Assembly: GCA_019096065.1 (NCBI GenBank)
Contig: JAGUCH010000007.1
Location: forward strand, 1,014,501-1,078,500
Direction of reading: 5' to 3'
Length of the DNA stretch: 64,000 nt
DNA from: Paracyclopina nana
Taxonomy: Eukaryota > Arthropoda > Copepoda > Cyclopoida > Cyclopettidae
A program made the translations under genes and the position numbers. Positions 41,501-53,712 of this stretch are shown in pieces (the stretch's first letter is position 1; each line of letters starts with the position of its first letter). The notes under the pieces were generated by a model. It searched no databases, was not told where the DNA came from, and worked only from the letters and a program-made list of their open reading frames with translations.

Positions 41501-42166
41501 ATGGCCGGCTTGAAAGCTGACCTGGACAACTACTTAAGCTCCAAGGGCGGGAGCAGTCTCAGTAACCTGACAAAGTCGTTTACATTGCCCACGCTGAAGT
41601 CGCCCTTTGGCACAAGAGACTCGTCCAAAAGTGGTGGTGACGACGAGGAGGCTTTGCTCAGTGAAAGTGACTCCACATCCAGTGGGTGGTGGAACAACAA
41701 CGATGCCAAGAAAGACTGCTTGCCATCTCTCACGAAAAAGCAGCGGATTTTCGGCTTTGTCACATGCCTTGGATTGGGGCTGTTCTTCTTCTCATTTGCC
41801 ACTTTCTATGTGCCTGTCATTGTGCTGAAGGCAAGAAAATTTGCTCTGTTATTCAGCATGGGCAGCCTGTTCACACTTGGCAGCTTCTCCTTTTTGTGGG
41901 GCCCTTGCAATCACCTCAAGCACTTATTTGGCAAGGAAAGGCTGCCCTTCACATCGGTCTATCTTGGCACTTTGGCGGGCACTCTGTATTTTGCCATGGG
42001 ACTTCAAAGCTACGTGCTCACCTCTATGGCAGCCGTTTGTCAAGTGTTGGCTCTTCTTTGGTTTGTGATAAGCTACATTCCTGGAGGTCAGACAGGAATG
42101 AAGTTTTTCGGGCGGATTTGCTCTGCCATGTGCAAGAAAGGTGGTGGGGGTGTACTTCCCATTTAA
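41501..42166 (+). CDS. SFT2-domain vesicle transport protein
   Basis: Four-span Golgi membrane protein thought to assist fusion of endosome-derived carriers with the Golgi. The frame gives 221 aa, closest in size to SFT2D3. A soluble N-terminus with many Ser and acidic residues precedes KKQRIFGFVTCLGLGLFFFS, which opens the SFT2 domain. The other membrane segments are FALLFSMGSLFTLGSFSFLW, GTLAGTLYFAMGL and AVCQVLALLWFVISYIPGG. The TAA at 42164-42166 overlaps the stop of the PEX7-like copy on the other strand. The gene starts 38 bp after EIPR1. Its last 190 bp are duplicated downstream. Confidence 0.9.
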   Translation: MAGLKADLDNYLSSKGGSSLSNLTKSFTLPTLKSPFGTRDSSKSGGDDEEALLSESDSTSSGWWNNNDAKKDCLPSLTKKQRIFGFVTCLGLGLFFFSFATFYVPVIVLKARKFALLFSMGSLFTLGSFSFLWGPCNHLKHLFGKERLPFTSVYLGTLAGTLYFAMGLQSYVLTSMAAVCQVLALLWFVISYIPGGQTGMKFFGRICSAMCKKGGGGVLPI

Positions 42167-42429
42167 TCACAGTGAAAGACCTTTGTCTCAGAGTCCCACG
42201 AACAATCAACAGCAAGGTTCTGGTGAAACGGGCTCAAGTCAAGGCCGAAAACAAACTCTGTGTGATGTGTGAGCCTTTTGTGCTTTAACGGGCCATTGAT
42301 GTTCCAAGATCTGACAGAGAGGTCGTATGAGCAGCTCAGATATGTGTCTTCATTGTGGCAGGAGGCAACCAATAGTTTCACTTCATATTCTTGGCCAAAA
42401 AACCTAAGTAGTGGTTGAAAAGTGGGCAC
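42163..42429 (-). pseudogene. Duplicated 3' fragment of PEX7
   Basis: An 80-residue open frame nearly identical to the last WD repeats of PEX7 (HTEFVFGLDLSPFHQNLAVD then CSWDSETKVFH). It has no upstream exons because it begins at the duplication junction. The frame is still open, which suggests a recent copy. Confidence 0.85.
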
Positions 42430-42608
42430 TCTGTATTTTGCCTTGGGACTTCAAAGCTGTGTGTGCTCACCTCTATGGCAGCCGTTTGTCAAGTGTTGGC
42501 TCTTCTCTGGTTTGTGATAAGCTACATTCCTGGAGGTCAGACAGGAATGAAGTTTATTGGGCAGATTAGCTCTGACATGTGTAAGAAAGGCGGTGGGGTG
42601 TACTTCCC
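42423..42608 (+). pseudogene. Duplicated 3' fragment of the SFT2 gene
   Basis: Copy of the last membrane segment of the SFT2 protein (TSMAAVCQVLALLWFVISYI). A 2-bp length change near 42460 (GCTGTGTGTGCTCACC for GCTACGTGCTCACC) shifts the upstream part out of frame. It has no start or upstream domain. Confidence 0.85.
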
Positions 42609-42610
42609 AT

Positions 42611-43123
42611 TTAATCATAGTGAAAGACCTTTGTCTCGGAGTCCCACGAACAATCAACTGCAAGGTTCTGGTGAAAAGGGCTCAAGTCGAGGCCGAAAAC
42701 AAACTCTGTGTGATGTGTGAGCCTTTTGTGCTTTAACGGGCCCTTAATGTTCCAAGATCTGACAGAGAGGTCGTATGAGCAGCTCAGAAATTTGTCTTCA
42801 TTGTGGCGGGAGGCGACCACTCGTTTCACAGCATATTCATGGCCAAAGAACCTGAGGAGTGGTTGAAAAGTGTGCCTGAGGTCCCATAGCCGAATTGCTC
42901 CGTCAACAGCTCCAGTCAGTATCCAATTTCGATTGAAATGATGCCAATCGAGTGATGCCACGTCACATCCGTGATTCAAAGCAATTGCTGACCTCGACAC
43001 ATCATTCAAGTCCCACAGGTCGAGCCTCTTCTGTGAGCTGCCCACTGCTACCAAGTTTGAGTGGAAGTGAGAAAATTTTGAGTCAAACACTAAAGACTGA
43101 GTGATGTCGCATTTTCTAACTGC
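42611..43123 (-). CDS. PEX7: PEX7, C-terminal part of the exon split by the BEL element
   Basis: Continuation of PEX7 exon 3 beyond the retrotransposon. WD40 repeats are visible (LVFDSKFSHFHSNLVAVGSS, RLDLWDLNDV, WILTGAVDGAIRLWDLR, FLSCSYDLSVRSWNI), and the end is that of the family (HHTEFVFGLDLS...ADCSWD-like). ACTGC (plus strand) at 43119-43123 is the second copy of the target site. With the element and one target copy left out, 26 + 508 bases of exon 3 form one open frame. In the assembled state this part has no start codon of its own, so it should not make normal PEX7. Confidence 0.9.
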   Translation of the reverse strand, partial: AVRKCDITQSLVFDSKFSHFHSNLVAVGSSQKRLDLWDLNDVSRSAIALNHGCDVASLDWHHFNRNWILTGAVDGAIRLWDLRHTFQPLLRFFGHEYAVKRVVASRHNEDKFLSCSYDLSVRSWNIKGPLKHKRLTHHTEFVFGLDLSPFHQNLAVDCSWDSETKVFHYD

Positions 43124-43348
43124 TGTACGCAATGTCGCTGCAAAAGTACTACGCCTTTGAGAGAATTGCGGATGACTACGAAGTGTTTTCAACGTTTTAA
43201 TGAAACTTACGAGTTTTCAATAAATAGACGTGATGAAGGTGAATGCTGGAACGTAACTGATGAATTTATTCAGCTGTCGCTATCGGAAGGGGAGGGAAAC
43301 ATGAGAGGCGGGAATATTCAAATTGGAATAACAAGCGAAGTTCAAACA
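43124..43348 (-). repeat. 3' LTR of the BEL element
   Basis: 225 bp, identical by eye to 52483-52707. On the minus strand it carries an ATTAAA that could serve as a polyadenylation signal. The stop codon of the last ORF lies just inside it. Confidence 0.95.
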
Positions 43349-44739
43349 TTCCCCGCTGGTGGCGCTGTGTCGTCACCACCATAATCTTCGCCAAACATGA
43401 GATCATGTGCGTCAGACATGTCGATGTCTTCGTCCTCGTCTTCTTCCTTTTTGAGCAGGTCTTCAGGGACTTCTGCCAATAGTTTTGGTCCGGCGTTGGC
43501 TCCTGGAGGCGGAGGAATCGGGGTAGCCAATCTTAAGACCGGTCGAGGTTGCGGGGGCGGCGGCATCAAAAGTTCCTCCGGCGGAGGAATTTCCACCTTT
43601 AAAAGGGGCAACGGGGCTACTTCCGAAGCCAGTAGGGCAGCGGAAGCTGAAGGAGGTGGTGCGTCATCGTCGATTTTCAATAGCAGTTGCTCAAACGGGA
43701 GAATCCTTTGCCTCGCGTCCTCGAGGTCTGAGGCCGGGGCTGAATCCAGGTTCGGATCACTGCCAGACGGAGTAGTTGTGGGCCCCGAGGTCATTGACGG
43801 TTCTGATCCTGGTTCTAGCGAGGTAGTGGAGGATGACATCGAGGCTTCGGCTGAATTGGGTCGATACGATGCATCTGAAGCTACCTCCAAGGATCCAGAC
43901 GTTGCCGTGGATGATGGCGAGACAAGGTTTATTGTCTCGGTGGATTGAGTCCGGAGCTTTCTGAGGTAAGAAACAAAATTTGCTTCCCCAGTCCGGATTT
44001 CCCAGCGTCGATCCCTTCTCACAAAGTCATTGTTCAATTCGAAAAAGTTATCGACTGTAATGTGAGGATTTTGATTAAGGATCCGGTTTAACGCGTTTAT
44101 GGGAACTAAGACAATTTTTTCGCTGGTCAACGTGCTAGCTAACCCCTTTGGATCAGTTCTGGGGTCTCTAAACGTGACAGTTTGAGCGAAATTAGCGATC
44201 ATTTCATTTCCTTTTTGTTTTGCTAAACTGTTGCCTCTGTTTGGTTTTGCAGGCCTCGGGGGCAGTATTGAGGCTGCTTGGGATCGCGGAGCTCCAGTGT
44301 TTTGGCGAACGAGGTCCTCAAGACCGGTTTTTTCGCGCTGGAGCTCATTGTAATTGCGAAGCGCTATTCTACGGTTTTCATCGCTTTGCATTGTTCTATG
44401 TATCGGGTAAGGATCGGCCGAGCTAACAATTTTAATAGCATCGTCATAGATTTTACCCAGATCTGCGAATACGTGGATGGCTTCTTTGACATTGCCTCGA
44501 CTTAGATAGAGAAGCCTTAGACTATCGAGTTTTAACCAGTCGAGTCTCTTTTTCAGGTGTTCCATCGGGATCCTTGAGACGTGGCCTTCCTGAAGCTTTG
44601 AGCCGAGGATTCGGCTCATTGGATTTAGCAGGACTTCGGCAATTCCAGTACCCTTCGTTTTGAGTTCGCTATACAAGGTGGGCTTGTTGAACTTGAACGG
44701 GTAGTTTCGTTTTCGGTTGATGTTGGATTGATGAGCCAT
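43342..44739 (-). CDS. BEL element third ORF, unknown function
   Basis: A 465-residue frame downstream of pol, where some BEL elements carry env. It has no signal peptide or membrane segment. The N-terminal third is basic and helical (INRKRNYPFKFNK, MEHLKKRLDWLKLDSLRLLY). The middle is mixed, with FFELNNDFVRRDRRWEI. The C-terminal half is rich in Ser, Pro and Glu, including polyproline runs and an acidic stretch (KKEEDEDEDIDMSDAHD). This resembles a nuclear or regulatory protein more than an envelope. The ATG at 44739 is the first in frame, and the frame ends 3 codons into the 3' LTR. 438 bp of apparent non-coding sequence separate it from pol. No homologue was recognised. Confidence 0.75.
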   Translation of the reverse strand: MAHQSNINRKRNYPFKFNKPTLYSELKTKGTGIAEVLLNPMSRILGSKLQEGHVSRIPMEHLKKRLDWLKLDSLRLLYLSRGNVKEAIHVFADLGKIYDDAIKIVSSADPYPIHRTMQSDENRRIALRNYNELQREKTGLEDLVRQNTGAPRSQAASILPPRPAKPNRGNSLAKQKGNEMIANFAQTVTFRDPRTDPKGLASTLTSEKIVLVPINALNRILNQNPHITVDNFFELNNDFVRRDRRWEIRTGEANFVSYLRKLRTQSTETINLVSPSSTATSGSLEVASDASYRPNSAEASMSSSTTSLEPGSEPSMTSGPTTTPSGSDPNLDSAPASDLEDARQRILPFEQLLLKIDDDAPPPSASAALLASEVAPLPLLKVEIPPPEELLMPPPPQPRPVLRLATPIPPPPGANAGPKLLAEVPEDLLKKEEDEDEDIDMSDAHDLMFGEDYGGDDTAPPAGNV

Positions 44740-45177
44740 TTTTCTTTTCAGACGAAGAAGTTTTCCAATTATGGCGAAGTTTTCCAAAGATGGCGAGGAC
44801 GTGGACTCGTGCAAATTTTAGAACACAATGGGGATCGATCCTTGTCCCACGTGAGCTATTTATACTGTTCAGCCGGCTCCGAGAGGTGTCTCAGTAAGTC
44901 CGCGTGCAATGAGGTTTTTACGTCATTGGTTTTCTGTTCACCGTTTTCTGATCGGCCTCTAATTCGTACTTTGGGACTTAGCGAATTTTTTGGCTGTTTT
45001 CCGCGAAGAAGTTTTCCGTGCAAGTTCTTTGTTTACGGGTGATCGCTGCGCGATTCGCCGTTCGGCTTTCCCCGCAACTTGCGCTGTGCGACGAAAACTT
45101 ACGTCACTGACGAATTTTCCGCGGACACAATTAGTGCTGTTTTCCCCGCGTCTAGCAGAGTATTGAATTCCCCGCGT

Positions 45178-48100
45178 TTATAGTATATTTAGCGGAATCA
45201 ATTGACGAATAGAGTAGACGTCAGGTTTTGCAGGTTTTATTTTATCTTTTTTAGTTTTACTTTGGTCCTGAGCAATCAGGACTTCGCATTTTCTAATTAA
45301 CCCGTCTTTGTCCGGAATGAGTTTCGAGATTCTACCCCATTTCCAGTCATAGCGGGGTGGGACTTGCCAAGTCTTTTTTGCATCTGGAGACTGCATTATG
45401 AGGCAAAGTTCACCAAGTTTTGGGTTGTCTCTAAATTTTGTCCATTTAGGAAACTTTTTTAGGTCATCTATTACGGCAGTTGTCCATTGTTGCCAGTAAG
45501 TATCGACTATGTCACGTATATTTAAATATAGATTCGTGAATCTGTTTTCGTCCTTTACTTCAAGGACACTATTGTCAAAGTTTAAGCCTGCTTTTATCAA
45601 GTCATTTATGCATAAAATGCCTTCTATTTTGTCAGTTTCTATAGGATTGACGGGCCTGTTATTTATCAAGTTTATGATCATTTCAGAAGCCGTCATTAGT
45701 TCATCGTGTGAGAATTCGTGGCTTTCTAGACATGGAAGTCTAGCTTTCGCTAAGCCCACCATTCGTTCAGCGAGTCCATTGTTTTGGGGACTGTAAACAG
45801 GTGAGAATTCCCAGTTCTCTATATTTAATGTATTTTGTATTGTGGACATGTCAGGTATTAACAGTTTTCTAGCGCAACAAAATTGAGCTGCGTTATCAGA
45901 CCTGACATTTTTCGGGGTCCTTCGTTTGCTGCAAAACCTTTGAAGGGCAGTAATTATGTGTTCAGTTGCCATGCTTTCCGTGATTTCCATGTGAAAAGCG
46001 TGGGTTTGCTGGCAAACTATGATTAGCAAATAGTATTTGTGGATTGCTCTTCCAATTTTTACTTTAACTGGGCCCGCAAAGTCGATCGAGATGGATTCAA
46101 AAAGTTTTAAAGTTTCAAGTTTTGAATCCGGAAGCGGAGCCATGTGTTGACTTTGGTACGGTTTGCCTTTTGTTAAGTTGCATATCAGACAGTGTCTTAT
46201 TACGTTTTTGGCAAGTACACGTAGTCCTTTTATTTGGAAGAATCGGTTGACTTCCATTATTGTTTCTCTTAAAGATGCATGATTGACTTCATGAGCGTTT
46301 TGCACTAAAAGTTTCGTGAGATGACAGTCTTTGTCAAGTATGATAGGCCTTTTTTGATATATAGACAAGGCTGCGAAGTCTTCTACTCGTGATTCCCCGC
46401 GTACGATGCCATTTGCATCTAGCTTGGCATTGAAGCTGGCGAGTTCTGCCTTTAGGTTAGAACTTTCACGAGAAAAAGCTGCTGTTTGGGCCTCTTTTAT
46501 GATAAAAGTCAAGGCAGAGCGAAGCTTTTGAGGTAGTGGGCGCTTGGCCTTTAGGTTAAAGCTTTCCAGCTTTTTGCGAGTTTCTCCAGTGCAATCCGGA
46601 CTTTTTAAGCGCCGTGCGCAAAGTCTGAATTTTCCGTTTTCTAGAGACGAGACTCGTTTTAATAGTTTGCTTAGGTCTTCGAAGTGCGTTTTCAAATACG
46701 TTTCCGTGAAAATAATCGGACGTTTTGATACAGTTTTTATTAAGTCCTTTGGCTGTTTTTCAGGCCATGAGGCGTCTAGTTTGAATAGAGCTCGTATAAA
46801 GTCAAATGACATGAAAGGTGTGTAGTTTTTGAGCTTTAGATGACTGAAAAGGCAGATTCTGGCGAATGAGTTCCTCATTTCGTTTTGATCTTCTTCAGGC
46901 ATGTCATCAAAGTTTTCTTCATCGAAGTCATAATCCGGATTTTCAAGGTTATTACCTTTGAACCAGAAGTTTTGTTGACTGATGAATTCGTCAAGTGTTA
47001 ATGATCGAGTGCCAAGGTCAGCAGGATTTTTATTAGTCCTTACGTAATGCCATTGGCTTTTTTCAGTTGTTTCTCTTATTAGTGCAAGTCTCGTAGCGAT
47101 GAATTGTTCAAGCCGTCTGCTTGTGAACTTAATCCATTGTAAAGTGCACTGTGAATCGAGATAGTAATGAATGTTTTCCTTAGGCACCTCGTAATTGACC
47201 AGTTTCAAGTTTTTAACTACGTTTGGCACTATTTGGGCAGCGCAGACTGCTCCCATTAGTTCAGCTTTTGGAATAGATCTCCCTGAAAATGAGATCAGCT
47301 TCTTTTTAGCTACAATAAGATGAGCTTTTATTAGCTCGTTTTCATCGTCAGTTTTGTAAAAAGTTCTAATGTAGACTGCGACACAATAAGCTTTTCTAGA
47401 TGCATCACAGAAAGCATGTATTTCACGTTTCGTAATGAATTCCGGATTGACAGATATATAACGAGGTAATTCAATTTCGTTTATTCTGCATCCGTCATTA
47501 ACATAGTTTTGAAAAGCTTTAAGGATTGGTTCGACTCGTTCGTCTTTTTCTTTGTAGTCTACGAGTTTGTCATCCCAGCCAAGTTTTAAAGTATCGTTTA
47601 AGCCCCAGACTTCCTGAGTTATTAGGCGTCCTTTTAAGGTAAATGGGGCTAATAAGTCTTGGGGGTCAAAAATTTGAGCTACTACTGATGTGATGTATCG
47701 TCTGGTCACGATTTTGAGGTCATCATCAGTAAGTTTTGTTTTTAAAGGTTGAAAGCTAATAATGTCATCGCTCGAAATCCATTTGATGCCAAGAGCTTTG
47801 ACATCTGGAGTTTTTGATTTTAGGTCGAATGTGGGGTGCCAGTCTGAAGTTTCTATTTTGGACATGAAGTCTTTGTCATTACTGACCCACTTTTTAAAGA
47901 CCATTTTCGATTTTGCATGGACATTTTTGACATCATTGTAAACTGCGAGTGCATCGCTTGTTTTATCGCAGCTGAACAAAATATCGTCCATGTAAAGGCA
48001 TTCATTGAACACGTATTCGGTCAATGGATGCAAATTGCCTTCTTTTGATATCTCTTTCATAGTGTAGAGAGCAGCGTAAGGCGAAGCTGCATTGCCAAAG

Positions 48101-49368
48101 ACCCAGGACTCAAACTGATAAGCTTGGCCTCTGTGTATTAGTCTATGGAACTTTTTGTCTTTTTCACTTAGGTGGACGTTTAAGAACATTTTTTCAGCGT
48201 CAGCTATATAGCCTTTTAGTCCCATCCGGAAGCGCATCCAGATTGACCATATATCGCCTTGAAGCTTTTGTCCAGTCATAACTTGTGAGTTTAAAGAGAC
48301 TTTGTTTTTGCCGAAAGGGCGAGCTGCATCCATGCAAACTCTAACTTTCATAGTAAGTCTGTCAAGTTTGACCACCATGACACGTGGAATATAGAAGCCG
48401 ATGAGCTTGTCTTCGTCATCGCGAAGAAGTCTTAAAGCTCCATGTTTGACCATGTCTTCTATGGCTTTATCCACTTGTTTCATGTTTTCGGGACCCAATT
48501 TGTCCTCTTGTTTTTTCTCAAAAGTGTAAACTTGATAATAATTATTTGGCAGAGGGGGTGGATCAGGCCATGAGTACCAGGGGACATCCATTTCTTTGTT
48601 GCCTTTGGCATTAGTGTGGATGCTGCCTTTGATGATGTCTCTGGCTTTGATCTCGTCTGCAGTCAAGTATTCGTTACTTTCAATAAGTTTTAAGCCTTGG
48701 CTGTCATCATCGAAAAGTGCATACATGATTTCCTTGAGTTCTGGGCATTCATTTTGCACTATTTCGTGAGTTAGCAAAGTGGCACTTGAGTTTTTCTTTG
48801 AATCCGGATTTGAATAAGTCAGCGTATTGCCAAAAACAGTTTCTCTGACTAAGGGCGAGTTTTCCATTCCGGATGAAATGTCTTTAAAACTTGTATGCAA
48901 AGTTGGATAGTTGATGCCTAGAAGGATTTCAACTGGTCCATTATGCAGTTTTGGGAAGTCAATTGGTTTTAGAAAGTCGAATTGCCTTTTAAGTTTTTCG
49001 TAATTGGGCAGTTTTATCAGTTTGTTGATGCCATCAGACGTGTAAGCTTGGATGTCAAAGTTTTGCTTCGTCTTAAAGACTGGTCTGATGTTGACATTGC
49101 ATCTGTAGCTTTTCATGTCTTGGACTTTGTCATTTATGGTTGAAACCGAATAGTTAACTTTTTGGCCTTGAAGGTTTAAAGCCTTGTGTAGACTAGTGCT
49201 GATGAAGGTATTACTTGAAGCTTCATCCAACACCATGTTAGTTTTCACTTGCTTGTCGCCATTAGTGACAATTACTGGAACTACTCTAAAGCATTTATTT
49301 GTAGTTAGCTTTGGTAGATCTAGCTGTCTTTTTATTTCAATCATTTGTAAGGCGACTGCTTCAGGCAT
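45178..49368 (-). CDS. BEL/Pao Pol polyprotein
   Basis: 1396 residues in one open frame. An aspartic protease with the BEL-type LDEASS active site lies near 47-52. Reverse transcriptase spans about 290-560, with a catalytic Asp in GYIADAEKMF (about 390) and YMDD at about 459-462. RNase H begins near 650 (IHAFCDASRKAYCVAVY) and contains an Asp in YYLDSQC. The integrase has a HHCC zinc site (HEVNH...CLIC near 1010-1055). Its catalytic core residues lie in SIDFAGPV, VRSDNAAQF and GLAERMVG. The C-terminus (GELCLIMQ, WKWGRISKLIPDKDG) is a DUF5641-type domain. All catalytic motifs look intact. It starts 9 bases after the gag stop in another frame. Confidence 0.95.
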   Translation of the reverse strand: MPEAVALQMIEIKRQLDLPKLTTNKCFRVVPVIVTNGDKQVKTNMVLDEASSNTFISTSLHKALNLQGQKVNYSVSTINDKVQDMKSYRCNVNIRPVFKTKQNFDIQAYTSDGINKLIKLPNYEKLKRQFDFLKPIDFPKLHNGPVEILLGINYPTLHTSFKDISSGMENSPLVRETVFGNTLTYSNPDSKKNSSATLLTHEIVQNECPELKEIMYALFDDDSQGLKLIESNEYLTADEIKARDIIKGSIHTNAKGNKEMDVPWYSWPDPPPLPNNYYQVYTFEKKQEDKLGPENMKQVDKAIEDMVKHGALRLLRDDEDKLIGFYIPRVMVVKLDRLTMKVRVCMDAARPFGKNKVSLNSQVMTGQKLQGDIWSIWMRFRMGLKGYIADAEKMFLNVHLSEKDKKFHRLIHRGQAYQFESWVFGNAASPYAALYTMKEISKEGNLHPLTEYVFNECLYMDDILFSCDKTSDALAVYNDVKNVHAKSKMVFKKWVSNDKDFMSKIETSDWHPTFDLKSKTPDVKALGIKWISSDDIISFQPLKTKLTDDDLKIVTRRYITSVVAQIFDPQDLLAPFTLKGRLITQEVWGLNDTLKLGWDDKLVDYKEKDERVEPILKAFQNYVNDGCRINEIELPRYISVNPEFITKREIHAFCDASRKAYCVAVYIRTFYKTDDENELIKAHLIVAKKKLISFSGRSIPKAELMGAVCAAQIVPNVVKNLKLVNYEVPKENIHYYLDSQCTLQWIKFTSRRLEQFIATRLALIRETTEKSQWHYVRTNKNPADLGTRSLTLDEFISQQNFWFKGNNLENPDYDFDEENFDDMPEEDQNEMRNSFARICLFSHLKLKNYTPFMSFDFIRALFKLDASWPEKQPKDLIKTVSKRPIIFTETYLKTHFEDLSKLLKRVSSLENGKFRLCARRLKSPDCTGETRKKLESFNLKAKRPLPQKLRSALTFIIKEAQTAAFSRESSNLKAELASFNAKLDANGIVRGESRVEDFAALSIYQKRPIILDKDCHLTKLLVQNAHEVNHASLRETIMEVNRFFQIKGLRVLAKNVIRHCLICNLTKGKPYQSQHMAPLPDSKLETLKLFESISIDFAGPVKVKIGRAIHKYYLLIIVCQQTHAFHMEITESMATEHIITALQRFCSKRRTPKNVRSDNAAQFCCARKLLIPDMSTIQNTLNIENWEFSPVYSPQNNGLAERMVGLAKARLPCLESHEFSHDELMTASEMIINLINNRPVNPIETDKIEGILCINDLIKAGLNFDNSVLEVKDENRFTNLYLNIRDIVDTYWQQWTTAVIDDLKKFPKWTKFRDNPKLGELCLIMQSPDAKKTWQVPPRYDWKWGRISKLIPDKDGLIRKCEVLIAQDQSKTKKDKIKPAKPDVYSIRQLIPLNIL

Positions 49369-49376
49369 CTTAGTTG

Positions 49377-50789
49377 CTATGTTATTTCTGCGCTGGGTTC
49401 GCTGCTTTCTAAAAAACTGTTTCGTTCAAGCAGCGTTGCCAGCGTGGTCTCGATTTTGTCAAGCTTCTTTTCGAGATTTTTGTTCATTGATTCTTTTTGC
49501 CTGTTATCAAAGTGCTTGTGCATGATGCCATGATGTGGGCCATTGCAAGCTTTGCACTTTGGGGCTTTGCACGTATTCCTCCTATGTTTTGAGGTGAGAC
49601 AGCGCATGCAAACGCCTTTTTCAATACACTTCTCGTACTTGTCTTTGGCCGCCATTTTGTAGAAGACTCTGCACTTTGGCAGTGTGTGATTGTCTCTGTT
49701 ACAAATTGGACAGCCGGACAAGGTTTCATCGCGGGTTGCAGTAGCCAAGCAAGTCTCTGAAAAGTCAGACGAGTAGTCAGATTCGACTTCGGTGTCTGAG
49801 TCAGAGTTGACTAGCAAAGTGGGCTCTGCTTTCTTTTTAGGTCTTGCGCCCGTGGGAGCGTCTGTTTTTAGAGTTTTTTCATAGGCATTTAGCCTGTTGA
49901 GAGACATGTGCCATTCCATGAATTGTAACACTGACTCTGTATTTAATTTCAGGTTTTTGGACTCAATGTATGTTTCGAATGCCATTTTGGAGGACTCTTT
50001 CCATTGGATGCCAAATGGGATCGTTTGAATGCCCATGTCCGGATCGCAATTGAGTCTTTGTCCTTCATCTCTGTAATGTTTTCGCAGAGCGTAAATGACA
50101 TCCTTGTATTCAATAAGTGAGTCTTTATTTGTATGATCAAGAGGTTTTAGGCCACATAACTTGTTCATGAGGTAGCCTGTTCGTCCTTTTTGATCAGCAA
50201 ACAGCGTGTCAAGTCTTTCAATAGCATTGGCCAAGTTTGTGAGGTTCAAAGGTTTGCAGTCTTTGACCTCAGTCAATGCCTCTCCCTCAACACTGTCAGC
50301 CAGGATCATGAGTTTGTTTGCAGGTGAAATGGACGTGTTTTTGATAACTTTAAGGAAGAATCGATCCTTGAAGTCCGGATAGTCGCCCATGTTTCCTGTA
50401 AACTTCATTTTCAGACTGTCTGTTTCTTTGGGCAGTTTTTCCTTTTTCGGGTCAAATATCTGGCTCATTTTGAAGGCTCTTCTGTAGAGGTCAGACCATT
50501 CAGTGATCGGATCTTTTTGAGCTTTTCTCAAAATTGAGTTTCGGTTTGTTTGAATTGTGATGTATTCTTCTTCCTCTTCAAACCGAGGTGAAGGTGATCT
50601 ATTTCTGGAAGTTCGTCCTCGGTATGAGTATTCAGGTCTGGCATTGGCATTGCCGCTGCAATTGTCTCTGCCATTGCCATTTCCCTGAGCATTTGGGTTT
50701 GGGCCTTTTATTTGAGAGATTGGCCAGTTTTCATTTTTCGGTGGTTCCGGGGTTAGCTCTAAGTTTGGAGCTTTCAAATTTTGCCTCAT
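49377..50789 (-). CDS. BEL Gag, C-terminal part with zinc knuckles
   Basis: 470 residues. A capsid-like helical region (DUF1759 type; MKFTGNMGDYPDFKDRF) is followed by a basic and acidic linker. A row of cysteine motifs of zinc-knuckle type comes next (CPICNRDNHTLPKC, CMRCLTSKHRRNTC, CKACNGPHHG), then a coiled coil. Its first ATG overlaps the stop of the preceding frame in TAATG, but the preceding sequence also appears coding in this frame, so the real start is probably further upstream. Confidence 0.85.
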   Translation of the reverse strand: MRQNLKAPNLELTPEPPKNENWPISQIKGPNPNAQGNGNGRDNCSGNANARPEYSYRGRTSRNRSPSPRFEEEEEYITIQTNRNSILRKAQKDPITEWSDLYRRAFKMSQIFDPKKEKLPKETDSLKMKFTGNMGDYPDFKDRFFLKVIKNTSISPANKLMILADSVEGEALTEVKDCKPLNLTNLANAIERLDTLFADQKGRTGYLMNKLCGLKPLDHTNKDSLIEYKDVIYALRKHYRDEGQRLNCDPDMGIQTIPFGIQWKESSKMAFETYIESKNLKLNTESVLQFMEWHMSLNRLNAYEKTLKTDAPTGARPKKKAEPTLLVNSDSDTEVESDYSSDFSETCLATATRDETLSGCPICNRDNHTLPKCRVFYKMAAKDKYEKCIEKGVCMRCLTSKHRRNTCKAPKCKACNGPHHGIMHKHFDNRQKESMNKNLEKKLDKIETTLATLLERNSFLESSEPSAEIT

Positions 50790-51810
50790 TATCGTGTTTT
50801 CCAGGTCTTCAAAAGCTCTTTTTCGAAGCTTTTCATGTCCTTTTCCTCTGGATTGGACGCTTCTAGTTCTTTTTGAACTTGTTTCGGTGGAGCTGGAGTT
50901 GACGTGGGGGCTGCGGGTTGAGGCAGCTTTAGTTTCCGGATTAGCGCGCTTGACCCACTTCTGAACTGTGTAATGTGGCCTTGATAACTGCTAATCTGTC
51001 TAGGTTCAAGTTTTGCATGTTTGAAGGCTTCTTTGGCCTCTTGAGCTTTCAATGCAATTTTGTTTTCTAGCTCTGATAACAGTTCAGTGCGCGATTTGAA
51101 TAAGTCCGGATTCGGATCTTTTTCATAGTTTTCAATCGTCTTTTGAGGTCTGCTATGAGCTGCTTGAATTCCTCGTAGTTTTCGCTTGCTTTAGCGTTTT
51201 CCGGGGTGGAAGTATCAAAGCTTCCTGGTTTTTGAATAGTGGATGATGACTTGTCGATGCTCATTTGCAAGGACTCATCTTTTTCATCGCTTCTAAGCTT
51301 TTCAGGTTTTTCAAGTAGTTCTTCCATAGTTTTGTCCCCCATTTCTGGTAATTTTGACAAGCTGACATTATTCCAGCTACAGACGTAAGAGGACTCTGCT
51401 AAGGAGACTTGTGACTCGTCCGGATGAAGCTTTTCATATTCGGCTTGGTAGACTTTGAACTTTGCAATCCAAGCTCTCCTTCGAATCATTAGTTTTTGAA
51501 GTTCTTTGTCCAATTCAATTGCTTTTGAGTCTCTCATTTCACCGTCCTCATAGTCTCCGTAAGGCATTTGGAAGACAGCATTGATGCTGTCCTGCAGAAC
51601 TGTGAGCTTGGGTCTGAGAGCTTTTAATTCTTTTATTTTTGACTTCACATTCGCTTTCATGGTTTCGATTGGAATCTGGTACCAGTCCTCGAAGACCTTG
51701 AACAGAGCCTGAAGCTCATTTTCAATGTCACTGATAGCTGATGTCCAATTGGATCCGGACTCGTTTTCATCCGATGAATGCGAAGTGCTGTTCAAGACTT
51801 TTTCCGCCAT
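50789..51810 (-). CDS. BEL Gag, N-terminal part, frame broken twice
   Basis: The ATG at 51810 opens a helical Gag-like frame (MAEKVLNSTSHSSDENESGS) that closes at 51067. A second frame, open from upstream of 51052, closes at 50789. Coding character passes smoothly from one frame to the next near 51138 and again near 50820, both next to runs of A. Real mutations, programmed shifts and sequencing indels would all look like this. Pol and the third ORF show no such breaks. Confidence 0.75.
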
Positions 51811-52482
51811 TTTACTCGTGAAATAAGCAAGGTTTTATTCAGGTTTAATCACAAGCAAGTTTTATTTTCGTATAGACACGAAGTTTTATTGTAGAGAGGA
51901 AGTTTGAATGACAAGTAGTCGATAGTTTTACAGATGTGGATAGAGGTTGACAATCCTTTGAGTTTGAGGATTGCCTGGGTTGGGTTCACAGTAGAAAGTT
52001 TTAGAAGAAGTTTTGATAGGATAGTTTTACAAGTTAGAAAGGAAGTTTTTGAAGAAGAAATGACGCTTTTGGAGGTCTGTTGCCACGGGATTGGAATATT
52101 GCCGTGGGATGTCTCTCCTCTATGGGTCATATGCCAGATGGAAGCTCGGTTTGATGATGCTTTTCGAGATCTGTTGCCACGGGATTGGAATATTGCCGTG
52201 GGATTTCACTCGTCTGTGGATCAACAAAGCCAAGGCTGCCACGTGGTTTGGTTTTGAGCTTTCGCTACAAACAGGATTTTCACGCCGCTTTTTAAGGCAG
52301 GGGTTTCTGTTGCTGTTTGTAGGATCGCTGTTGGCCTTTGCCAAACGGGATTTCCAACGCCGCTTTTTATAGCAGGGGTTTTCTGTTGCCGTTTAGTTTT
52401 GAGCCCCAAGAGCTACGGCATTCAAGACTTCTAACCGGCGGTTAAACAGGGGCTGAGTCTGTCCTGTTAACGTTGGGCGCCA
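51811..52482 (-). other. BEL 5' leader with internal direct repeats
   Basis: Non-coding leader between the primer-binding site and gag. Two pairs of direct repeats are present: about 52074-52110 with 52169-52204 (CACGGGATTGGAATATTGCC), and about 52285-52325 with 52346-52390 (CGCCGCTTTTTA...GCAGGGG). Each pair could mark packaging or dimer signals, or simple slippage. Confidence 0.75.
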
Positions 52483-52707
52483 TGTACGCAATGTCGCTGC
52501 AAAAGTACTACGCCTTTGAGAGAATTGCGGATGACTACGAAGTGTTTTCAACGTTTTAATGAAACTTACGAGTTTTCAATAAATAGACGTGATGAAGGTG
52601 AATGCTGGAACGTAACTGATGAATTTATTCAGCTGTCGCTATCGGAAGGGGAGGGAAACATGAGAGGCGGGAATATTCAAATTGGAATAACAAGCGAAGT
52701 TCAAACA
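52483..52707 (-). repeat. 5' LTR of the BEL element
   Basis: 225 bp, identical by eye to the 3' LTR. Its outer edge abuts the target copy 52708-52712 inside PEX7 exon 3. Confidence 0.95.
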
Positions 52708-53222
52708 ACTGCTTTTAAAGTGTTCGGGTCCCACTGAGAAAAAAATACTATTATGACCTGCATGAAAAGTCCGATATAGAATTTTTACAATTTTGACTGA
52801 TCCATCCAATGAGCAAGTGAGGATAAGCATTCCAAACCAATCAATGGAAGACACTTCTTTAGCATGTGCTTGAAGGGACATTGATCTGGTGTCATTGTGC
52901 CAACTTGTCATCATGCCACTTCCACTGCATGTCACGAGCCTGCATGGATCCTGTGGGCTCCAAGCCACGTCTGTGATGACGTCAGGCTCTGCGGATTTAC
53001 CCAGCTCAGTGAGAGTTTGATTGCCAGGGTCCACAGCCAGCCAAAAAATTGAGCCTTTTCCTGGACATTCATGCTATTTGGTAGATCTTTTCTTGTAAAT
53101 GAAGAAGGCTCACCAGTGAGTCCAAAGTGCGATCCACCCACCAAAGCTAGTCTGTTCCCTATTGTTGGGGAAAATTTGACAGAGTACCCATGAAATCCTG
53201 GTGTTGTCAGACTCTTGGCCAT
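52708..53222 (-). CDS. PEX7: PEX7, N-terminal exons, interrupted by the BEL element
   Basis: Receptor that carries PTS2-tagged enzymes to peroxisomes; a WD40 beta-propeller. Exons 53222-53114 and 53060-52789 and the start of exon 3 (52733-52708) are in phase. The 53-bp intron 1 uses the acceptor at 53062-53061; the nearer AG at 53081 would break the frame. The N-terminus SLTTPGFHGYSVKFSPTIGN matches the family (LRTPGRHGYAAEFSP in human). EVSSIDWFGMLILTCSLDGS and WDPNTLKAV follow before the break. Exon 3 resumes at 43118, and the whole gene would encode about 304 aa (human 323). The assembled allele would read into the 5' LTR. The start codon faces NUDT2 with 67 bp between them. Confidence 0.92.
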
Positions 53223-53289
53223 TTTTCTTCTGCTGCTGCTGACAATATTCCGGTTTGTCTTATCAGACCAATTTTATCTTTTCAGAACT

Positions 53290-53712
53290 ATGGAGCCAGT
53301 GCGTGCTGCAGGGTTTATCATTTACCGCAAATTCCCTCAAATCGAGTATTTGCTCATGAGAGCCTCGTATGGATCGCACCATTGGACTCCTCCCAAAGGG
53401 CATGTGGATCCTGGCGAGTCAGACTATGAAACTGCTCTCAGAGAAACTCAAGAGGAGGCAGGCTTCAAGCCTGAGGTTCTCAAAGTGGTGCCAGACTTTA
53501 AAGTAGTTCTCCACTACAATGTGAAAGACAAGCCCAAAATAGTCACTTATTGGTTGGCAGAACTATTGAATCCGAGCGTTAACAACGTTCAGCTGTCAAG
53601 AGAGCATGAAGACTACAAGTGGCTGCCATTGGAAGAGACAATGACTCTCAGTGGTTTCAAAGACATGAATGAGGAGCTGAAGAGGTGCCATGCGAAAATT
53701 CAAAGCCTCTAA
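53290..53712 (+). CDS. NUDT2: Bis(5'-nucleosyl)-tetraphosphatase, Nudix type
   Basis: Cleaves Ap4A into AMP and ATP in the cytosol. The 140-aa product matches the NUDT2 length. The Nudix box is intact (GHVDPGESDYETALRETQEE then AGF), with the conserved TPPKGH before it and the family tail EHEDYKWLPLEE. ATG 53290 is preceded at once by TTTTATCTTTTCAG and AACT, an acceptor-like sequence. It is divergent from PEX7 across 67 bp, and convergent with ASCC2 (24 bp between stops). Confidence 0.95.
   Translation: MEPVRAAGFIIYRKFPQIEYLLMRASYGSHHWTPPKGHVDPGESDYETALRETQEEAGFKPEVLKVVPDFKVVLHYNVKDKPKIVTYWLAELLNPSVNNVQLSREHEDYKWLPLEETMTLSGFKDMNEELKRCHAKIQSL

Follow-up and report, generated by a model that had tools for sequence, protein, structure and literature searches.

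In Drosophila, import through the peroxisomal targeting signal 2 (PTS2) is absent, its receptor Pex7 is kept and Pex7 mutants are defective (PMC7477296); fly and nematode, both without PTS2 import, are also without PEX39 (PMC12339391), and in mice the outcome of PEX7 loss is severe (PMC9310236), as the consulted parts of these papers have it. Here, I describe PEX7 of the copepod Paracyclopina nana as it stands in a window of 64,000 nucleotides (assembly GCA_019096065.1, contig JAGUCH010000007.1, positions 1,014,501 to 1,078,500 of the forward strand; coordinates below are those of the window unless a contig is named), where the gene is split by a BEL/Pao retrotransposon. The insertion has clean junctions, the remainder of PEX7 is intact, and translation into the element meets an early stop. 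The reading that I favour, and consider fairly probable, is that a recent insertion in sense orientation made a null of the only PEX7 found, and that this was tolerated since most of the PTS2 import route had already been taken apart. The loss of a peroxin is usually visible merely as an absence, whereas the broken PEX7 is here still legible; its partners are readable in the same genome, so that the order of loss becomes testable.

The insertion in PEX7 and its effect on the gene

PEX7 occupies three exons on the minus strand between positions 42611 and 53222 and is split by one long terminal repeat (LTR) element. Exon 1, with the start codon, lies at 53114-53222 and exon 2 at 52789-53060; the introns, of 53 and 55 bp, both start with GT and end with AG. 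The target is the last coding exon, exon 3, which consists of 26 bases upstream (52708-52733, one target copy included) and 508 bases downstream (42611-43118, ending at the stop codon), that is 534 bases at the empty site. The element itself spans 43124-52707 on the minus strand (9,584 bp), in sense relative to PEX7; its ends are TG...CA, its 5' LTR (52483-52707) and 3' LTR (43124-43348) are the same at 225 of 225 bases, and it is flanked by the target site duplication (TSD) ACTGC at 43119-43123 and 52708-52712. Scripted removal of the element and of one target copy yields a reading of 304 amino acids, stop-free and with no other lesion. Nine of the 15 proteins related to the downstream piece were aligned, and at least four of these nine (P0002, P0007, P0008 and P0011) run uninterrupted through the insertion point, so the insertion is the derived state.

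The identity of the gene was examined by structure and by sequence. In the PDB, the best match of the upstream half is the yeast PTS2 receptor 3w15 (E 5e-17). For the whole 304-residue reading 3w15 comes fourth (E 8e-28), after three propellers that are presumably designed proteins, and for the downstream piece alone it comes sixth (2.8e-16), behind the same three and two natural WD40 proteins (1.1e-16 and 2.1e-16). PEX7 is thus the closest natural WD40 propeller to the whole reading and to the upstream half, on which the identification rests, two natural WD40 proteins scoring marginally higher with the downstream piece. A protein search returned 34 matches, among which entries named Peroxin-7 or peroxisomal targeting signal 2 receptor align over nearly the full length and an uncharacterised protein of Daphnia magna is, at 36%, the best match with a named source. 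The closest relative of the downstream piece is the unnamed P0001, with 75% identity over 94% of 169 residues.

As the gene stands, the codon split by the junction encodes valine as before, a second valine follows, and a TGA is met no later than base seven of the LTR; the product has 137 residues, 136 of them matching the empty-site reading. The LTR holds an AATAAA in the sense of PEX7, and the downstream piece of exon 3 has no in-frame ATG. Were the two LTRs to recombine later, 230 bp would remain, a length not divisible by three.

A second PEX7 was sought in the single 92-Mb assembly, whose ten contigs measure 6.3-17.8 Mb except for the smallest, of 268 kb. The DNA of exons 1 and 2 matches its own locus only, and the protein of exon 2 finds, besides itself, one stretch of 37 residues (E 0.004, 35%). 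The protein of the downstream piece gives 35 matches in the assembly, including itself and an 86-residue relic at 42166-42423 (90%) that belongs to a tandem duplicate described below; the best of the others has E 3e-10 with 31% identity, and identity stays at or below 37% throughout, the ordinary level among WD40 proteins. A further copy is rejected on these grounds, all that was met being WD40 relatives and the 3' relic. Given that the frame stops early, that the LTR holds an AATAAA, that the downstream piece offers no in-frame ATG and that no second PEX7 was found, the allele should be null; I regard the insertion and the null as nearly certain. An initial annotation of this stretch had placed a young element in exon 3, and its coordinates, lengths, TSD and LTR identity all hold, the 534-base exon included; so does its claim of an open frame resembling PEX7 on both sides, here extended to 304 stop-free residues with near-full-length PEX7 matches. 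The null allele that it proposed is well supported, and the other PEX7 copy that would have spoken against it was not found in the assembly, by DNA or by protein from both halves.

Two features of the neighbourhood deserve mention. A tandem duplication (450 bp) at 41977-42875 covers the tail-to-tail ends of PEX7 and a Got1/Sft2 gene: its right copy (42424-42875) contains the PEX7 3' end with a relic of the Got1/Sft2 3' end, its left copy (41977-42427, 92.5% identical) the Got1/Sft2 3' end with a relic of that of PEX7, and each gene was left with one 3' end of its own and a remnant of its neighbour's. Given the divergence of its copies, the duplication is probably older than the insertion. On the other side, a NUDIX gene (53194-53712, plus strand) stands head to head with PEX7, the likely start codons being about 70 bp apart, so that the promoter region may be common to both.

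The PTS2 route in the same genome

The PTS2 cargo followed in PMC12339391, in the part consulted, is PHYH, ACAA1 and AGPS. The Thiolase_N model has ten matches in the P. nana genome, at six places. These were scored against human reference sequences of ACAT1, ACAA2 and ACAA1, taken as correct: ACAT1 is the best reference at two places and ACAA2 at two more, ACAA1 leads by a narrow margin at L047 (150 bits against 139 and 133), and the sixth place has no best reference. By characteristic motifs, L047 is presumably HADHB and the sixth place presumably SCP2. Identities to ACAA1 lie at 30-45%, apart from one stretch of 58 residues (52%) at a locus better matched by ACAT1; the loci closest to ACAT1 and to ACAA2 reach 56-75%. 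By these scores and motifs ACAA1 was not found among the six loci. Nor was AGPS, whose query gives only two genes, at 29-30% identity, which by eye appear to be LDHD and D2HGDH. PHYH is present (L071, C9:1296346-1297097); its N-terminal exons as read hold no PTS2, and its C-terminus, GKL, is not a canonical signal of the other type, PTS1. Among the three canonical cargo proteins, none with an N-terminal PTS2 was found.

A second line of evidence comes from the partners of PEX7. Residue E77 of human PEX7 is the binding site for PEX39 and for the N-terminal KPWE of PEX13, and across eukaryotes the presence or absence of this KPWE mirrors that of PEX39, according to the consulted part of PMC12339391. 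In P. nana, PEX13 is found at C2:9145475, where the frame from the first likely methionine begins MAADVPPPVPPRNN; [RK]PWE is absent from every frame of at least 15 amino acids at the locus, a search that would miss an upstream exon if it were very short or lay far away.

PEX7 itself appears to have drifted. The alignment used 25 of the 34 matched proteins (23 full-length ones plus P0007 and P0008), leaving aside four partial (P0002, P0005, P0006, P0011) and five weak matches (P0039-P0043). The position of human E77 is occupied by P72 in P. nana, by P in P0007 and by K in P0008; the 23 full-length PEX7s have E in 22 cases and D in one, and yeast 3w15 also has E. Of the columns near-invariant in the 23, P. 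nana keeps 41 of the 55 that it covers, P0007 28 of 46 and P0008 31 of 45, whereas in a leave-one-out comparison each of the 23 keeps at least 88%, the lowest being a fungus with 53 of 60. Since E77 is replaced and near-invariant columns are lost here and in both relatives, the constraint on PEX7 appears to have changed in the clade before the insertion. Taken with the cargo genes, a prior loss of PTS2 import is likely as far as the sequences can tell.

The element and its family

The element codes on the minus strand. Its pol frame (45178-49425, 1415 amino acids), delimited by open reading frames (ORFs) and Pfam matches, contains in order RVT_1 (47896-48204, 36.2 bits against a Pfam cut-off of 29.6), Peptidase_A17, the Pao retrotransposon peptidase (47197-47706, 102.5 against 22.3), Integrase_H2C2 (46168-46323, 25.6 against 25.5), rve (45826-46092), slightly short of its cut-off at 30.2 against 32.6, and DUF5641 at the end of pol (45247-45522, 46.8 against 23.1). 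Two aspartic protease models stay below their cut-offs, Asp_protease_2 at 17.9 (24.3) and DUF1758 at 14.9 (22). By its Pfam domains, LTR ends and 5-bp TSD the element is filed with BEL/Pao, with which it shares Peptidase_A17, reverse transcriptase, the integrase zinc-binding domain and DUF5641 in a single long frame. It differs in having a conserved third ORF after pol for which homologs were not found.

Upstream of pol, comparison of ORFs with those of sibling copies delimits a gag-like region made of a first part (51067-51834), an overlapping part in another frame (50789-51190) and a further part (49377-50990) where DUF1759 scores 24.6 bits, just below its cut-off of 25.4. The region is not readable in one frame in the PEX7 copy, but is so, by hand-checked coordinates, in the eight sibling ends that have both matches. 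The third ORF (43342-44817, 491 amino acids) has a match in eight full-length copies; it is an unbroken frame in six of them, one of which runs off the end of its locus, and is split in two in L004 and L011. Compared with L007 it shows dN 0.043 and dS 0.361. Outside its own genome no relative was found: among 7,997 candidates scored in a search of 5.8 billion proteins, not one reached E 1e-3. Its fold model is of low confidence (mean predicted local distance difference test, pLDDT, 39.9), with helices in the first part and a long tail free of them.

Querying the genome with the LTR gave 40 scored matches among 66 candidates, its own two included, which is a lower bound. The 13 LTR pairs with fetched loci were compared, the PEX7 copy among them; the pairs left out include at least the C2 pair, C1:700398-705508, C1:12589919-12593653 and C5:1745502-1750970. 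A perfect 5-bp TSD flanks 12 of the 13 pairs and seven show zero differences, from which it follows that the family has moved recently and often and has many young copies. A single LTR at C1:12720185 has GGCAT on either side. For the PEX7 copy, 0 differences in 225 bases allow a divergence of up to 1.3% at 95%; at this length LTR identity is a weak clock, insufficient alone to make the event very young.

The same LTR family includes four short elements of 2.4-2.9 kb (L010/L009, L016/L013, L017/L014 and L030/L024), all with TSDs and with at most one difference between their LTRs. This suggests that they are non-autonomous derivatives, mobilised along with the 9.6-kb ones. One of them, L010/L009 (C7:1859381-1861713, 2.4 kb, LTRs identical), lies inside an open frame of 341 amino acids, where 95% of shuffles give at most 142. 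Among 12 tested junctions, the open frames of four are above the 95% mark of the shuffles, two of these marginally.

Readings of the locus and comparison with known systems

The sequence of events that would account for these observations starts with PTS2 import being largely given up in the lineage, its cargo lost or deprived of PTS2. The KPWE limb of PEX13 would have gone too, and PEX39 probably with it, while PEX7 drifted but stayed open, perhaps for a lesser second role as in Drosophila. An active BEL/Pao retrotransposon would next have inserted in the last coding exon. Transcripts of PEX7 would since end in the 5' LTR or be degraded, and any product, made of 136 of the 304 PEX7 residues plus one, would be too short for a propeller; the two together would make the allele null.

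Several points weigh against an earlier dismantling of the route. The absences of cargo and peroxins come from six-frame searches without an animal control, and the GNPAT query of the genome, which had no match, was likewise uncontrolled. So was the search with KPWE_dom (PF17733), which I take to be the PEX39 domain: this is a short domain, and its one match is below the cut-off (E 0.7, in a frame of 1,856 amino acids). PHYH has a loose PTS2 match, RLNLKQRQF, within its conserved domain. A strict one, RLGRVLRHL, occurs at another gene of the PhyH family (L072), where it overlaps the start of the gene in a different frame, and is taken, without proof, as chance; further strict matches fall in the middle of a gene (L074) or on the strand opposite to it (L075). 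Any PTS2 on proteins outside those examined would have escaped. PEX5 is present with WxxxF-type motifs, and a stretch of it can be aligned to the human PEX7-binding region (27% over 125 columns, the human sequence being assumed to be accurate). Finally, the PEX7 frames of the relatives P0001, P0007 and P0008 are open over the parts covered, which argues for a PEX7 functional until recently.

It is from these last points that the strongest rival draws, namely that PTS2 import matters, that most individuals have an intact PEX7, and that the assembled individual or haplotype carries a rare, recent and deleterious null allele. The PEX7-box-like stretch left in PEX5 and the open frames of the relatives agree with it, as do the identical LTRs and the otherwise undamaged gene, which fit a recent event. 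I nonetheless hold it to be unlikely: against it stand the failure to find any canonical cargo with an N-terminal PTS2, a PEX13 locus without KPWE and a PEX7 without the KPWE-binding glutamate; these absences, for their part, concern the need for PTS2 and not the frequency of the allele, which may be rare even with import lost. Far less credible is a transcript from which splicing removes or skips the element and which still yields a PEX7 that works, fully or in part. By reading, not by computation, the downstream half offers a cryptic AG that would keep the frame when joined to the donor of exon 2 and would cost 16 residues; but a WD motif is among them, the AATAAA of both LTRs would have to be bypassed over 9.6 kb, and a GT-AG at the duplicated target, again by reading, leaves the frame unrestored. 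An assembly artefact that misplaced the element at PEX7 scarcely needs consideration since, although assemblers can be misled by repeated LTR families and the gag-like frame broken here and not in siblings may be a base error, the perfect 5-bp TSD, the TG...CA ends and the unbroken gene sequence on either side are those of an integration product, and 11 of the 12 other LTR pairs are alike, each with its own target.

A null insertion preceded by the decay of PTS2 import thus remains the preferred reading, and the initial annotation had come near it in suggesting, as an alternative, that the lineage tolerates the loss of PTS2 import as nematodes and some insects do. The cargo genes, PEX13 and PEX7 itself lend this support, while the PEX5 stretch and the open frames of relatives weigh against it. 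The PTS2 motifs of thiolase and phytanoyl-CoA hydroxylase, which it had named as a check, could be judged for the latter only, PHYH having none in its N-terminal exons and the peroxisomal thiolase ACAA1 not being found itself. Its insect comparison is apt insofar as Drosophila is without PTS2 import, yet Drosophila keeps Pex7, so that PTS2 loss does not equate with PEX7 loss (PMC7477296, in the part consulted). Fly Pex7 is also reported to sustain PTS2 import when placed in human cells deficient in PEX7.

A more detailed order can be put forward tentatively, its chances being somewhat below even: the cargo and the signals were the first to go, PEX39, the PEX13 KPWE and the PEX7 glutamate followed, and PEX7, kept for a role outside PTS2 as in flies, was finally broken. 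If this were true, the animal would live without any PEX7 and the second role would be dispensable. The locus is also relevant to the function of PEX7 where an animal has it without PTS2 import, a question still open according to the consulted part of PMC7477296. Titles and abstract openings on PEX7 or PTS2 loss in arthropods and Acari, retrotransposon insertion in PEX7 and BEL/Pao exon insertion yielded no published report of such a break.

Compared with described systems, and as far as the consulted parts of the respective papers go, the locus agrees in part with each of them. Tardigrades resemble it in that the PTS2 receptor was recovered in one species only, but PEX13 and PEX14 were unrecovered there (PMC13389832) and PEX13 and PEX5 are present here. 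In nematodes the PTS2 route and PEX7 were lost together, as would be the case here; PEX7 is not found at all in them (PMC4690255, PMC8172628), whereas in P. nana it is whole except for one insertion. With Drosophila the shared feature is a PEX7 retained in a lineage where PTS2 import is apparently absent; the fly gene, however, is intact and its mutants are defective (PMC7477296), while the PEX7 of P. nana has since been broken.

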